From a virus, in IMG/VR virus record IMGVR_UViG_3300046511_000932, positions 1-39,493 of that record: a DNA stretch of 39,493 bases, one strand, 5' to 3'. How positions within the stretch are numbered: the stretch's first letter is position 1; every line of letters begins with the position of its first letter. The notes under the pieces were generated by a model. It made no database searches and had not been told where the DNA came from. It saw nothing but the letters and a program-made list of their open reading frames with translations. Position numbers and translations under genes: made by a program. Shown piece after piece: positions 6,001-39,493 of the stretch.

Positions 6001-6179
6001 TGCGCCACGCCATCGATGTAGATGATGGCCGAAGGCGGGAAGCCGACGCCGTTCACGCTAATGGTCGTGGCGCCCGCGCCCGCGAGCACGCCGCTGGGCA
6101 CGATGCTCAAGATGCGAAACGCGAGCTTCGTGCTCACGTTGCGCCGAATCGAGCTGCGCCGACGTCCAAACGAGCGCAT
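3045..6179 (-). CDS. Tail fibre/receptor-binding protein: six IPT/TIG domains and two LamG-like lectin domains
   Basis: 1044-residue surface protein. After a basic N-terminus (residues 1-16) that probably attaches it to the virion come four TIG-like immunoglobulin folds (about 22-105, 106-190, 195-290, 295-385), a LamG/concanavalin-like domain (~390-620; WNDLSSYGHHLTQ), two more TIG folds (~625-710 and 715-800, both containing SPNTAT) and a second LamG-like domain (~805-1044; QWDDQSGNGYHVVQ). The two lectin-like domains are the likely receptor or polysaccharide binders. TIG strands contain the recurrent TTFVNATTL, encoded twice by identical DNA (4137-4165, 5130-5158). Start ATG overlaps the preceding stop by one base (TAATG). 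Codon use is slightly less GC-biased than in the head genes, as is common for host-range proteins. Confidence 0.85.
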   Translation of the reverse strand: MRSFGRRRSSIRRNVSTKLAFRILSIVPSGVLAGAGATTISVNGVGFPPSAIIYIDGVAQTTTYVSAFLLQCTVAAGITAVPGFKSIRVFDALGHGSNTVSWPVSFPVPTLATVTPAFGFLGEGAVPVSGTGTGIYNPGTEAAVDGDPVASTYGSPTTIIITVPVTVVDGAGDHAITLSNPEPGGGASGSKLFQARYRAPSATALSVAVIPIDSGDFGLTVTGATAGTKFYRASDWPDGGSQGFVDNVPVTTTYTDATHVVVTVPAAVTSSPGTKAIKITNPTIGGGGGTSATLNVQVSAPSVVSLDSVSRVRGFDAFSLTVTGTSFLSTDAVMWGATPLTTTFVNATTLRATVTSALLAIVGTAQVGVRTATGFNTNTLPFDVTAWTFGDIGTPLRLWLDGTSLMDDGTGRASSWNDLSSYGHHLTQSASGNRPLIMPSVGGFNGQPGAFFTGSRPDFVSGIPWLVSGPDGLIQKLSYNIWVVGGATAASQSAANPTPIGCDNGQYVLAAALDTNLLQALDSSGTATAVNSTFTWDVGATWIFRQRKTAGSLYARTNRGAELSAVHGTNPAAFTPNNILVGRRLAASGAFTGFLGCVLITDSDLSYTHKSQIDNVLSSLYGTTFGTLGTLAVPTSCSPNTATQFDLPFTITVTGTGFTSGDFVNIDGFVLATTFVNATTLTASVTAAVLATSGRKNVTVANVNGISGPVRLDIAPYVPGVGPNLTSVSPNTATRYDDAFTITCTGSNFTATCVVKAGTTSLVTIFDSVTQVRATVTASVLYTNGTKAITVVDGATSSSAQNLTVANWGILDIPTLSTWFRADVVTTSGSAVTQWDDQSGNGYHVVQATSTKQPALITSDPNFNGRPSIDFDGTADTLLGTIAASPNILANAAWSTGVVYRADTIPTNGIPPVNVYNNASLIGLSATGYFTIVLANAPAMYGVTGDASNRSWVTNTAVAATATQQCFWRRSVALNSAELSINGGALATTTTLSPNISTQTLAIGSNLGGNYFNGQIAEAWTAKTRVSDTVLTRWNNYCRDRYGL
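4137..4165. repeat. 29-bp exact DNA repeat inside TIG domains, copy 1
   Basis: These 29 bases are identical to 5130-5158 in the same gene and encode the same strand (…TTFVNATTL) of two different TIG domains. Identity at the silent positions indicates recent duplication or gene conversion, not only protein-level constraint. Confidence 0.8.
5130..5158. repeat. 29-bp exact DNA repeat inside TIG domains, copy 2
   Basis: Second copy of the repeat at 4137-4165, in the fourth TIG domain. Homologous recombination between the copies would delete 993 bp (331 codons, in frame), removing the first lectin-like domain plus parts of the flanking TIG folds. Confidence 0.8.
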
Positions 6180-35036: not shown

Positions 35037-35937
35037 ACAGCTCGAGACGCGCCGCTCGATGATTGCGGCGACGGACGCGGTCATCCTTGCGGGGGTCTAT
35101 CCGGGCAAGAAGGGGCCGTCGTCGGTCTACCTCTCGAAGGTCGCCGAGCTCGAGGAGCGCGACGAGGAAGAGGCCTTGGCCCTTCGCCTCGGCAACCTCC
35201 TCGAGCCGCTGGCCATCGAGCTCGTGGCGGAGGAGCGCAACCTTTGGGTGGCTCCGGGCGAGACCGTGCGGCACCCGACCGAGTCGTGGATTGGCGCCAC
35301 GCCGGACGCCTTCCACGTGCGGCAATCTTCGGGCGCCCGCCTCGCTGTCATCGAGGCGAAGGCCGTCGGTCGCTTCCGCCTCTCCCACTGGGGCGAGGAG
35401 CTCGACGCGATTCCTGACTACGTCCACGTCCAAGTGCAGTGGCAGCTCCTCGCAACGGGGCTGAAGACGGCCTACGTGAGCGCGCTCCTCGGCCTCGAGC
35501 ACCGAAGCTTCGTCATCGAGCACGACGACACGCTCGCTTCGGCCCTCGTCGAGGTCTGCGAGGCCTTCTGGAAGAACCACGTGCTCGCGGGCAAGCCGCC
35601 TGCACCGGACGGTTCTGAGGACGCGTGGAAGGTTGTGAAGCGCGCGTTTCCGAAGCCCACGAAGGGTGGCCTCCTTTGGGCGCCCGGCCCCATCGAGGAC
35701 CTCGCGAAGGAGGCTTTGAAAGCCGCCGAGATGCGGAAAAAGTGGGAGGCCCTCGAGCAGCAGAAGAAGCAAGAGCTCTGCGCCCTGATTGGCAACGACG
35801 AGGGCTACGAGGGCGACGGCTGGCAGGCGAAGTGGAGTTTGCGGGCGGCGCACTCGCGCCCGGCGTGTGAGGTCGCAGCGAGCCGAGTGCTCGATGTGCG
35901 CGAGGTCAAGGCAGCGAAGAAGGGACGTGCAGCGTGA
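35023..35937 (+). CDS. YqaJ-type (lambda-exonuclease-like) recombination exonuclease
   Basis: 304-residue nuclease of the PD-(D/E)XK superfamily. RLGNLLEP (residues 55-62), WIGATPDAF with D95 and AVIEAKAV with E111 and K113 are the expected catalytic elements, followed by VQVQWQLL with Q137, the motif typical of YqaJ exonucleases. It should resect double-stranded DNA 5' to 3' and hand the 3' strand to the RecT-type annealase coded immediately downstream (GTGA overlap). The C-terminal 60 residues are helical and charged. Together with RecT this is a complete Red-like system. Confidence 0.88.
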   Translation: MLTREQLETRRSMIAATDAVILAGVYPGKKGPSSVYLSKVAELEERDEEEALALRLGNLLEPLAIELVAEERNLWVAPGETVRHPTESWIGATPDAFHVRQSSGARLAVIEAKAVGRFRLSHWGEELDAIPDYVHVQVQWQLLATGLKTAYVSALLGLEHRSFVIEHDDTLASALVEVCEAFWKNHVLAGKPPAPDGSEDAWKVVKRAFPKPTKGGLLWAPGPIEDLAKEALKAAEMRKKWEALEQQKKQELCALIGNDEGYEGDGWQAKWSLRAAHSRPACEVAASRVLDVREVKAAKKGRAA

Positions 35938-36893
35938 CGCAGGGCAATGGCAACGAACGGGCGATGCAGAAGAAGGAGCCGACGCCCGCGGCGCAGCTCA
36001 AGAACTTCCTCGAGAGCCCCGCGGTGAAGGCGAAGCTCGCCGCGGTCGCAAACAAGCTCATGAAGCCCGAGGATCTGATCCGAATGGCCCTCATGGCCGT
36101 CTCGCGGAGCCCGGATATCGCGAACTGCACGCAGGCCTCGATCCTGCGCTCGCTCATCGACGCCGCCGAGCTCGGCATTCAGCCCGGCGGGACCATGGGC
36201 CGTGGCTACCTCGTGCCGCGGATGAACAAGAAGGTCCAGCCATGGGCCCTCGAGTGCTGCTTCGACCCGGGCTGGCGCGGGCTCATCGATGTCGCGCGCC
36301 GGTCCGGGGAGATCGCCCGCCTCGAGGCGCACGTCGTCTATGCGAAAGACACCTTCCGGGAAGAGAAGGGTATCAAGCCCGTGCTCGAGCACGTGCCGTA
36401 CGACGGCGACGACGACCCGGGGCCAGTGCGGAAGGCCTATGCGATCGCGTTCTTCAGGGACGGGACCTACCAGGCCGAGGTCCTCCGCAAGGCGGACATC
36501 GACAAGATTCAGAAGTCCTCGGCGTCGGCGAATGGCCCTTGGAAGAACTGGTACGACGAGATGGCACGGAAGAGCGCCGTCCGCCGCCTCTGCAAGTACC
36601 TCCCGTACAGCTCGCAGCTCGAGAAGGCCCTCGAGAAGGCAACCGAAGCCGAGGTCGAGGACAGCATGGTTCAGGACATCGACGTCGTCATTGAGGGCAA
36701 GCCGAAGGGCGCAGCGCTCGCGGACAAGATCCGGTCGCGCGCCACGAACGGCGTGCCGAACGATATCGAAGTGCGCGAGCTCGAGGAGATGCTCGCCGCA
36801 CCGACGGGCGGCTTCGATGAAGAAGAGCGCAGTCCTGTCCCGCCCGCCGTGGGAAGCCGCCCGGGTGCACGCGAGCCGGGGGAAGAGGGATGA
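35934..36893 (+). CDS. recT: RecT-family single-strand annealing protein
   Basis: 319-residue annealase. RecT-typical pattern: LIRMALMAVSRSPDIANCTQASILRSLIDAAELGIQPGG (residues ~45-85 by position), GRGYLVPR, FDPGWRGLIDVARRSG, AHVVYAKD and later PWKNWYDEMARKSAVRRLCKYLP, all hallmarks of the family. It anneals complementary single strands exposed by the upstream exonuclease. GTG start in overlap with the exonuclease stop. The C-terminal ~60 residues are acidic and Pro-rich, probably disordered. Confidence 0.9.
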   Translation: MTQGNGNERAMQKKEPTPAAQLKNFLESPAVKAKLAAVANKLMKPEDLIRMALMAVSRSPDIANCTQASILRSLIDAAELGIQPGGTMGRGYLVPRMNKKVQPWALECCFDPGWRGLIDVARRSGEIARLEAHVVYAKDTFREEKGIKPVLEHVPYDGDDDPGPVRKAYAIAFFRDGTYQAEVLRKADIDKIQKSSASANGPWKNWYDEMARKSAVRRLCKYLPYSSQLEKALEKATEAEVEDSMVQDIDVVIEGKPKGAALADKIRSRATNGVPNDIEVRELEEMLAAPTGGFDEEERSPVPPAVGSRPGAREPGEEG

Positions 36894-37099: not shown

Positions 37100-37350
37100 G
37101 CGACGAGCAGAAGCCAACCTACGAGGAGCTCGAGGAGCTTGCCGCGCTTGCCCTTGCCTTTGCGCATGTGGTCGCAAACAAGACGAGCGCTTCACGTAGC
37201 GACGACCTCGACCTCTTCGCAGCGTTGACGGCGCTCGTCGGGCGCTCCCTCTTCGAAAGGCCGCCAGCCAAGTGGATGTTGGTCGCTCGCGACCGGGTCA
37301 ACGACAAGATCGACGCCGAGAATCGAGTGCATAGGGAGGCGGAGCCGTGA
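37096..37350 (+). CDS. Hypothetical small acidic protein
   Basis: 84-residue protein starting at a GTG overlapping the previous stop: MSDEQKPTYEELEELAALAL, then VVANKTSASRSDDLDLFAALTALV and an ending RDRVNDKIDAENRVHREAEP. Mostly helical, acidic N-terminus and mixed C-terminus. High third-position GC and overlaps on both sides support expression. No function recognised. Confidence 0.65.
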   Translation: MSDEQKPTYEELEELAALALAFAHVVANKTSASRSDDLDLFAALTALVGRSLFERPPAKWMLVARDRVNDKIDAENRVHREAEP

Positions 37351-37577
37351 GCCGCGACGCCGCCCTTCGCCGTGCCGCCTCGGCCCTCTCGGCCGCCGGC
37401 ACGGCGCTCCAGGACGCCGCCCAGGCCCTCGCCGAGGCCACGGGCGAGGAGAGCGTCCGCACGCGCAAGCCTCGAAAGGGGCCTGTCTTCGAGCCTCCGC
37501 CTCCTGAGCCGCCGTCGGCGCTTCACATGGCCCGGGCTCGTGACCTACTCAAGAAGCGGGGAGTGACAGCAGCATGA
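37347..37577 (+). CDS. Hypothetical small protein upstream of integrase (excisionase position)
   Basis: 76-residue protein: Ala-rich helix (RRAASALSAAGTALQDAAQALAEA), a basic Pro-rich linker (RTRKPRKGPVFEPPPPEPP) and a short C-terminal helix (MARARDLLKKRGVTAA). Small basic proteins directly before int are often excisionases, but no winged-helix pattern was visible, so this remains open. The stop overlaps the integrase start (ATGA). Confidence 0.6.
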   Translation: MSRDAALRRAASALSAAGTALQDAAQALAEATGEESVRTRKPRKGPVFEPPPPEPPSALHMARARDLLKKRGVTAA

Positions 37578-38962
37578 TCCGAGCGAGAGGAACCGGCACC
37601 ATCGAGCCGTTGCCGTGGGGCGGCTTTCGGGTGCGCATACCCATCGCGGGCGTGCGCGAGGACTTCGGCCCGTTCGCGACGCGCGAGGAGGCCGAGGCGA
37701 TGGCGGCGGCGCTGCGGCTCACCGCGCAGCGGGAAGGCGTTGTCATCTCGGGCGTGAAAACGCTCGCGGCCTACGGGCCCACGGTGCACGACGAGCGCGA
37801 GAAGTCGGGCTACACGACCGTCGAGGACCACCGGGGCATCTGGCGCCGCGAGGTGCTCCCGTGGTCGTGCTCGAAGTGGCCGCTCGCCGCCGTCGGCGCG
37901 GGCGACGTCCGCCGATGGGTCTCTGCCCTCTCGGCGAAGCACAAGACGTCGACGGTGAAGAACTGCCTCTCGGCCCTCCGCGCGGTCTTCTCCGCGGCGA
38001 CGCAGGACGGGCTCGTCGAGGTGAACCCTTGCAAGGGCGTCGACATTCGCGGCCGCGGGACGACCGAGGAGACGTCGACCTTCCTCTCGCGTCTCGAGCT
38101 CGAGGGCCTCATCGAGGCGGCCGGCGCGCCCGACGGGCTGCTCGTCGCCTTCGCCGCGGGCACCGGCCTCCGGCAAGGCGAGATGCGCGGACTGCTCGCC
38201 GCCGACGTGCACCTCGATTGCCCTGCGCCCTGGATGACGGTCCGCTTCGGGGCGCCGGGCATGCCGACGAAGCCGCGCCGCATCCGGAAGGCCCCCATCT
38301 TCGGGCTCGCCCTCGAGGCGGCCCGGGCGTGGATGAAGGTCCGGCCGAAGAGCGACCGGGGCCTCATGTTCCCGCGGCCCTCCGGCGAGCCGCGGGCGAA
38401 GGGGGCCATGGTGACGGGCGACGCGTGGGAGGCGTGGCTACGGACGGCCGGCATCCGGCGCAACGTCCGCTGGCACGACCTCCGGCACACGTGCGCGACC
38501 CTGCTCCTGCAGGGGGCCTGGGGCCAGCCCTGGAGCCTCGAGGAGGTGAAGGAGATGCTCGGGCACTCCAGCCTGCGCGTCACCGAGCGCTACGCCAAGG
38601 CGACCGGGTCCTTGGCCGACCGCGCGGCGGCGGAGAAGTTCGGTCCTGAACGGTCCTGGCTGCCGTCCCTGGCGATCGCATCGGCAGGGGAATTATCGAG
38701 GCGTGGATCGGATTCGAACCGACGTATGACGGTTTTGCAAACCGGTCCTCTCCTAAGTGAGTACGGGCACTTAGGCGCGAATCTGGTCTCTCCCGGGACT
38801 CTCGAAGCCGTCGAGACCGCCAGCCACGCCTACCTCCGGGCCGTCGTCGCTGGGGACCGGCACGCCCACACGAAGGGCCTCGAGCTCGTCGCCCGGGTGC
38901 ACATGTTCGTCGACGAGCTCCGGGCCGCCATGGCGCCGCCAGCGCAGGAGGGCGTGGCGTGA
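37574..38962 (+). CDS. int: Tyrosine integrase with attP inside its coding sequence
   Basis: 462-residue tyrosine recombinase. N-terminal arm-binding part (GTGTIEPLPWGGFRVRIPIAG, 7-27), core-binding SAM-like region (~70-160), catalytic domain with R200 (GTGLRQGEMRG), H301/R304 (HDLRH), H331 (LGHSSL) and nucleophile Y340 (TERYAK). After a normal end near residue 355 the frame continues through the attP core (residues ~375-391, the typical antisense-tRNA peptide GSDSNRR…LQTG) and adds a 71-residue tail with excellent codon bias. Integration would replace this tail with residues read from the antisense strand of the host tRNA 5' half. Myxococcus phage Mx8 has the same design. Overlaps neighbours by ATGA/GTGA. 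Confidence 0.9.
   Translation: MIRARGTGTIEPLPWGGFRVRIPIAGVREDFGPFATREEAEAMAAALRLTAQREGVVISGVKTLAAYGPTVHDEREKSGYTTVEDHRGIWRREVLPWSCSKWPLAAVGAGDVRRWVSALSAKHKTSTVKNCLSALRAVFSAATQDGLVEVNPCKGVDIRGRGTTEETSTFLSRLELEGLIEAAGAPDGLLVAFAAGTGLRQGEMRGLLAADVHLDCPAPWMTVRFGAPGMPTKPRRIRKAPIFGLALEAARAWMKVRPKSDRGLMFPRPSGEPRAKGAMVTGDAWEAWLRTAGIRRNVRWHDLRHTCATLLLQGAWGQPWSLEEVKEMLGHSSLRVTERYAKATGSLADRAAAEKFGPERSWLPSLAIASAGELSRRGSDSNRRMTVLQTGPLLSEYGHLGANLVSPGTLEAVETASHAYLRAVVAGDRHAHTKGLELVARVHMFVDELRAAMAPPAQEGVA
38641..38775. other. attP region: arm-type repeats and inverted repeat around the core
   Basis: CGGTCCT occurs at 38641-38647, 38651-38657 (two copies in tandem, one helical turn apart) and 38743-38749, at the far edge of the core. 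CCTAAGTG (38752-38759) and CACTTAGG (38768-38775) form a perfect 8-bp inverted repeat just beyond the core. Such repeats beside a tRNA-like core are candidates for integrase arm sites and accessory protein sites. All lie within the int coding frame. Confidence 0.55.
38697..38745 (-). other. attP core: 3' half of a tRNA-Cys gene
   Basis: Read on the minus strand from 38745 to 38697 this is the 3' half of a tRNA: anticodon stem 5' arm CCGGT, loop TTGCAAA with anticodon GCA (Cys), 3' arm ACCGT (one mismatch at the outer pair), variable loop CATAC, T-stem GTCGG / loop TTCGAAT / CCGAT, and acceptor 3' strand CCACGCC followed by T and CGA. No D-arm or 5' acceptor strand precedes it, so it is not a complete tRNA. 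Phages that integrate into tRNA genes carry exactly such a segment to restore the host tRNA. The host attB is therefore predicted to be a tRNA-Cys(GCA) gene. Confidence 0.85.
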
Positions 38963-39132
38963 GCCTCACGACCGCCCAGCGCTCCCGCCTGCGCACCATC
39001 ACGGAAGACTACGCGCAAGCCCTGGCCGCGATGCGCCTCGCCGAGCGCGAGCTCGCGCAAAGGCGGGCGGCGTACGTCGAGTACATCGGCGAGCTCGCGG
39101 ACGTCGTGCAGAGCGAGGAGGTGAAGCCGTGA
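38959..39132 (+). CDS. Small coiled-coil protein (unit A of the tandem duplication)
   Basis: 57-residue protein starting at GTG 38959 in overlap with the integrase stop. Charged helical sequence from MSLTTAQRSRLRTITEDYAQ to VVQSEEVKP; a coiled coil is likely. From ITEDYAQ on (39001-39134) the DNA is repeated exactly at 39360-39493, where it forms the C-terminal part of the next gene. Stop overlaps the next GTG start. Function unknown. Confidence 0.7.
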   Translation: MSLTTAQRSRLRTITEDYAQALAAMRLAERELAQRRAAYVEYIGELADVVQSEEVKP

Positions 39133-39359
39133 GCACCGCGAAACCAGCGCAGATGACCCTCCCCGCTCTGCGGGCGCACTGCAAGGCGCTAGAGGACTGT
39201 CTCGCGCGCGCCAACAAAGAGCTTCGCGCGGCGAAGAAGGACCTGAAGCACCGCAACGAGCAGGTCACCTTCCACGCCGACCACGCGCGGAAGAATGCCG
39301 AGGACGCCCAGGCGACGCGCGAGGCCCTCCGCTCCGTTCTCTCGGCTCTCAGCGCGGGG
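39001..39359. repeat. Tandem duplication unit 1 (359 bp)
   Basis: Bases 39001-39134 are identical to 39360-39493, and 39135-39358 are closely similar (few substitutions) to the sequence that follows across the circle junction, 128-351. So a 359-bp unit containing the end of one gene and most of the next is present twice in tandem. The second unit runs from 39360 across the contig junction to about 351. The identical first third versus the diverged remainder suggests partial gene conversion. Confidence 0.8.
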
Positions 39360-39491
39360 ACGGAAGACTACGCGCAAGCCCTGGCCGCGATGCGCCTCGC
39401 CGAGCGCGAGCTCGCGCAAAGGCGGGCGGCGTACGTCGAGTACATCGGCGAGCTCGCGGACGTCGTGCAGAGCGAGGAGGTGAAGCCGTGA
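39129..39491 (+). CDS. Fused small coiled-coil protein created by tandem duplication
   Basis: 120-residue protein. Residues 1 to ~76 match the protein at 122-400; from TEDYAQALAAM on it is identical to residues ~15-57 of the protein at 38959-39132. It is thus a fusion of the two neighbouring genes, produced when the unit duplicated in frame. GTG start in overlap with the preceding stop; the stop overlaps the GTG that starts the next gene (base 39488, equal to 122). Helical and charged; no function recognised. Confidence 0.7.
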   Translation: MSTAKPAQMTLPALRAHCKALEDCLARANKELRAAKKDLKHRNEQVTFHADHARKNAEDAQATREALRSVLSALSAGTEDYAQALAAMRLAERELAQRRAAYVEYIGELADVVQSEEVKP

Positions 39492-39493
39492 GC

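Follow-up and report, generated by a model that had tools for sequence, protein, structure and literature searches.

The window, by which we mean the whole stretch of 39,493 bases analysed here, is a circular temperate phage whose host is probably a member of the Myxococcota: bases 1–127 are identical to bases 39367–39493, which closes the record into a circle and leaves its attP intact. Across the junction of this circle, about 350 bp containing a small gene are present twice in tandem (39008–39366 and 1–345; 96% alike over the 300 bp compared), owing either to recent duplication or to a variant in the assembly. On the plus strand, the int gene (37574–38962) encodes a tyrosine integrase that in its long, phage form has 462 amino acids (PHROG integrase, E 2e-49). 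A small open reading frame of 76 amino acids with no family match (37347–37577, plus strand) overlaps the start of int by 4 bases, and the gene for a RecT-like single-strand annealing protein (35934–36893; PHROG E 7e-70) lies a short way upstream. The Pfam Phage_integrase model (PF00589) covers residues 181–343 of the int product (38114–38602; E 6e-18, 65.6 bits versus a cut-off of 27.1), and in the alignment of relatives R200, K233, H301, R304, H331 and Y340 are all present and conserved, with the catalytic Tyr340 (codon 38591–38593) being invariant. All of these residues are encoded before the att block.

This block starts 105 bp past the catalytic Tyr codon, in the int reading frame, and occupies positions 38698–38746; on the minus strand, antisense to int, it reads as nucleotides 25–73, the 3′ part, of a tRNA-Cys(GCA), with 48/49 identity to tRNA-Cys of Myxococcota. 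Because the record is circular, as its 127-bp end repeat indicates, the block represents attP; it is only part of a tRNA, as expected of such a site, given that ARAGORN detects no whole tRNA anywhere in the window. A second copy with up to three mismatches is absent from the window, and shuffled sequences lead one to expect none. The sequence-only reading had recognised a tRNA-Cys 3′ half past the catalytic Tyr and was correct in this, although its coordinates (38697–38745) were one base off; the 71 further codons that it described past the block are likewise present (38747–38959), with G+C by codon position of 80/46/86 versus 68/57/92 in the core. An 8-bp perfect inverted repeat just past attP (38752–38775) may be due to chance, and an RNA hairpin considered for this position was rejected, its fold being no stronger than those of shuffles.

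Allowing for up to three mismatches, the attP block occurs in 7 of 379 Myxococcota genomes, each time within a complete tRNA-Cys(GCA) gene, so that the myxobacterial target proposed from the phage sequence does exist. Most of these host matches differ from the block at one acceptor-stem base only, which is A in the phage and G in the hosts, and this accounts for the failure of an exact attB 43-mer to match anywhere in the genome contigs. No integrase of the window's family lies near the seven host tRNA-Cys genes. Of the prophages that had been suggested as a check, relatives were found, namely four myxobacterial elements with both att copies and an apparent provirus at tRNA-Cys with one end (L005), but the search found no lysogen of the window phage itself. 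In one locus (L242, G357:C5:136500-142500), a tRNA-Cys gene is accompanied by a detached 3′ copy that begins at the anticodon loop 2.4 kb downstream, with no integrase of the window's family between the two; the detached copy suggests that the window phage's target tRNA-Cys is used as an insertion site, and the locus may be a small or decayed element at that tRNA.

Joining the window's int in silico to the 5′ halves of the host tRNA-Cys genes gives a predicted Int of 392 amino acids that ends in RMTVLQTGA or RMTVLQTVA, keeps all catalytic residues and loses 70 residues; its stop codon, TAA, is the antisense of a TTA in the tRNA D-arm. Only two residues come from the antisense 5′ half of the tRNA before translation would end, so that integration would truncate Int and give it no new tail. 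The earlier proposal that attP lies in int and that integration changes the C-terminus is thus borne out as to structure, by the host tRNA-Cys genes, L005 and the four two-ended elements, while the tRNA-derived tail that it assigned to the prophage Int shrinks to these two residues.

What is predicted for the window is seen directly in its integrated relatives. In the viral contig L005, whose Int is 47% identical to that of the window, int reads through the same block and then through the exact tRNA-Cys D-arm/anticodon-arm sequence TTAGGCAACGG to end in RMTVLQTVA; both ends of this contig coincide with gene ends, and it is apparently a trimmed provirus at tRNA-Cys. The int relatives in myxobacterial genomes enter whole tRNA genes in antisense (Arg, Thr, Lys, Gly, Asp and His), and mostly stop inside them. 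For four myxobacterial elements both ends were found, and in each the separated tail lies in frame beyond a second copy of att, 5–35 kb away: G365 (46-bp perfect att repeat, ~16 kb apart, open tail of 91 codons), Polyangium sp. 6x1, or G004 (47-bp perfect, ~33 kb, 122 codons), G007 (63-bp imperfect, ~5 kb, ~43 codons) and G378 (69-bp perfect, 34.7 kb, 97 codons). G349 and several other elements showed no second att copy within the stretch examined around each.

It might be argued that the frame past att is open merely by accident, or that the contig is an assembly chimera formed at a repeated tRNA. Non-coding frames are indeed often open in DNA of 68% G+C, and while in G004 and G378 the other two frames past the second att meet a stop within 9 codons, in G365 another frame stays open even longer than that of the tail. 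Chance or artefact is nevertheless very improbable given the closed circle, the independent contigs of the same structure and the coding character of the tail, which is evident from its G+C by codon position, from homologous tails elsewhere and from its dN/dS.

The 71-codon tail, which forms part of Int in the circle alone, is homologous to the tails of L009, which has a Cys target, and L016, which has a Met target (Z 9.9 and 9.4, with 0/500 shuffles as good), and a profile built from these three tails also picks up the tail left behind in the integrated Polyangium element (0/1818 shuffles). On these comparisons the tail evolves as protein, being conserved between phages with different target tRNAs. 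The one pair in which selection could be gauged, L157/L160, gives a dN of 0.40 and a dS of 2.12 for the tail (ratio ~0.19, with dS near saturation) and 0.20 and 1.17 for the core (~0.17), such that constraint on the two appears similar and the tail is, by this estimate, under purifying selection. AlphaFold2, run on a 15-row alignment, predicts a helical hairpin for residues 407–452 (38792–38929; pLDDT ~72–85), composed of helices at 407–425 and 431–452 and preceded by a largely att-encoded, disordered stretch (378–400, pLDDT <50). Conservation of a segment that Int carries only in the circle points to a function for it in the phage form. Tail homology extends to part of the clade only: a common tail domain taking in Mx8, L153 and L157–L163 was unsupported, and a profile of the tail alone returned weak, chance-like matches in genomes and none in viral contigs.

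A simpler account would hold that attP sits in int only so that enzyme and site are exchanged as one unit, that both forms of Int work alike, and that the tail serves folding, dimer contacts or attP binding. The short form does retain the whole catalytic domain, the tails diverge strongly between lineages and some relatives manage with att after int. Such a compact module without a switch would leave unexplained, however, the conservation of a tail attached only in the circle among phages that target different tRNAs, and a constraint on it about as strong as that on the core in L157/L160; moreover, the two forms of the Mx8 integrase are reported to differ (PMC4701971). We therefore consider this account unlikely.

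The phage form of the arrangement, an embedded tRNA 3′ part followed by an in-frame tail, recurs in viral contigs L009–L011, L153 and L157–L162, as well as in L016 and L100 from genome assemblies, the tRNA part in L157, L158, L160 and L162 being recognised by translated motif and not by BLAST. There are variations on the theme: the tail of L012 is short (20 amino acids), and in L163 (6865–6938) ARAGORN calls a whole tRNA-Arg(cct) inside the int frame, which runs ~100 codons further, with only 51 nt of the call matching other tRNA-Arg genes. In L013 (6339–6373), the attP in int is a tRNA-Lys(TTT) 3′ part in sense orientation, such that integration would fuse int to the sequence downstream of the tRNA and not to its antisense 5′ half.

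Across a wider sample, int overlaps the tRNA in 20/22 close-group versus 5/22 distant-group integrases with a 3′-end tRNA (Fisher P 9e-6); the 20 include two genomes counted a second time (18/20 once these are removed), and of the five distant cases three likewise come from myxobacteria. An IQ-TREE phylogeny places the 41 clade members in one group (100/98); attP is scored as inside int in 35 of them (L113 on translated motif alone) and not in 6 (L120 and L156 on absence of overlap alone), in a sample that was gathered by similarity to the window and is biased accordingly. The remaining non-overlapping members, L098, L115, L154 and L155, show a tRNA or tRNA part just past the int stop, and with five or six clade members having att after int, the arrangement is evidently not essential. 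Judged from these sequences, attP inside int is the rule in an integrase clade found mostly in myxobacteria and environmental viruses. It is this clade-wide spread that is new here, the arrangement itself being already known from Mx8 and, by report, Mx9; a survey describing attP in int as a clade-wide trait was not found in the literature searched, outside of which most subscription journals lie.

The reading that we favor, with a probability of roughly two in three, is that int spans its own attP such that a long Int in the circle and a truncated yet catalytically complete Int in the lysogen constitute an integration-state switch. In the circle, Int would be the 462-residue form, carrying its helical C-terminal tail on a linker encoded by attP, a form presumably built for integration. 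Recombination with the 3′ part of the host tRNA-Cys(GCA) gene would restore the tRNA and fuse int head-on to it, whereupon int would meet the stop in the antisense D-arm to give the 392-residue Int, and the tail codons would be stranded at the other end of the prophage. The short form may have a lowered or changed activity that favors a stable prophage, and excision, probably aided by a directionality factor, would restore the long form. By analogy with Mx8, the long and short forms of Int would differ in their activity. Control might instead be exerted at the level of expression, in that a prophage int lying head-on to a strongly transcribed tRNA could yield less Int through convergent transcription or through loss of its 3′ end. 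The integrated int does overlap a complete antisense tRNA gene, but lowered expression would leave the protein-level conservation of the tail unaccounted for; we regard it as improbable in its own right, and it could act alongside the protein swap. Extending the protein switch to the clade as a whole is a more tentative step, which we would put at somewhat below even odds: an old clade with attP in int may use the host tRNA as a donor of stop codons, such that integration removes a conserved, phage-only tail and the circle or prophage state is written into the enzyme, a built-in control of directionality kept through changes of target tRNA (Cys, Arg, Thr, Lys, Gly, Asp, His and Met) and of the frame through the tRNA.

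The closest known system is myxophage Mx8, and the parallel drawn to it from the window's sequence alone was apt both in architecture and in the literature (PMC6070905, PMC4701971). In its IntP gene (AF396866), attP is likewise the antisense 3′ part of a tRNA lying inside int past the catalytic domain, and the window shares this placement of attP. On integration a 112-residue phage tail of the Mx8 enzyme is replaced with one of 13 residues (PMC4701971, PMC6070905); for the window, replacement of the tail is predicted from the in-silico joining and is seen in relatives. Later papers report that the changed Mx8 integrase is less active (PMC4701971), that it is altered in specificity and part of a molecular switch (PMC6070905), and that Mx8 is among very few elements with att inside their own integrase gene (PMC4701971). 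Mx9 is reported in a review to integrate on a principle similar to that of Mx8 (PMC6070905). At the level of sequence, Mx8 Int is remote, with ~24% identity in the multiple alignment and 80 bits versus the window's 490 on the clade profile, so that Mx8 represents the same arrangement in a distant integrase; it has another target tRNA, its tail resembles the window's no better than shuffles do, and no homology of Int or tail was detected beyond the general integrase fold.

In the integration-dependent immunity of mycobacteriophage BPs, the protein altered is the repressor, whereas in the window it is the integrase. As in the window, attP of BPs lies in a coding gene whose product has a C-terminus that depends on integration (PMC4557955). 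Streptococcal ICEs in rumA also have an att inside the integrase gene that alters its C-terminus (PMC4701971), but they differ in having a serine recombinase and a protein-coding target gene. The archaeal SSV-type “suicidal” integrases share an attP within the integrase gene (PMC8371274); there, however, the gene is broken in two on integration and its catalytic part is detached, while the window's predicted 392-residue form keeps all catalytic residues, so that nothing catalytic is cut off. A 2021 review places recombinases that disrupt their own gene only in archaea (PMC8371274), and integrases reaching across attP are treated as an exception in the paper on the Islander database (PMC4383910).

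On these data, integrases that alter themselves are the usual form within one clade, which spans myxobacteria and environmental phages, and their tail evolves as protein. The many natural pairs of long and short Int make control of an integrase by the prophage state, through a C-terminal swap, a testable proposition, and short int forms that read into an antisense tRNA are likely to be mis-annotated.

Two observations on related contigs deserve mention. L004 (8952–9983, minus strand) carries another integrase, cut short by the end of the contig. The same tRNA-Cys 3′ part lies within its reading frame, read in a frame other than the window's (ARIGFEPTYDGFAI) and followed by a long frame, so that attP may have come to lie in int independently here. 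L009 and L010 seemed to diverge sharply upstream of int, at first sight a sign of recombination at att, but this proved to be an indel in an ungapped comparison, the two phages being 94–99% alike over the stretches compared. Between positions 6101 and 8403, these two are ~4% apart in the int core and identical for 2.3 kb from 39 bp before attP onwards, which marks a mosaic boundary close to attP.
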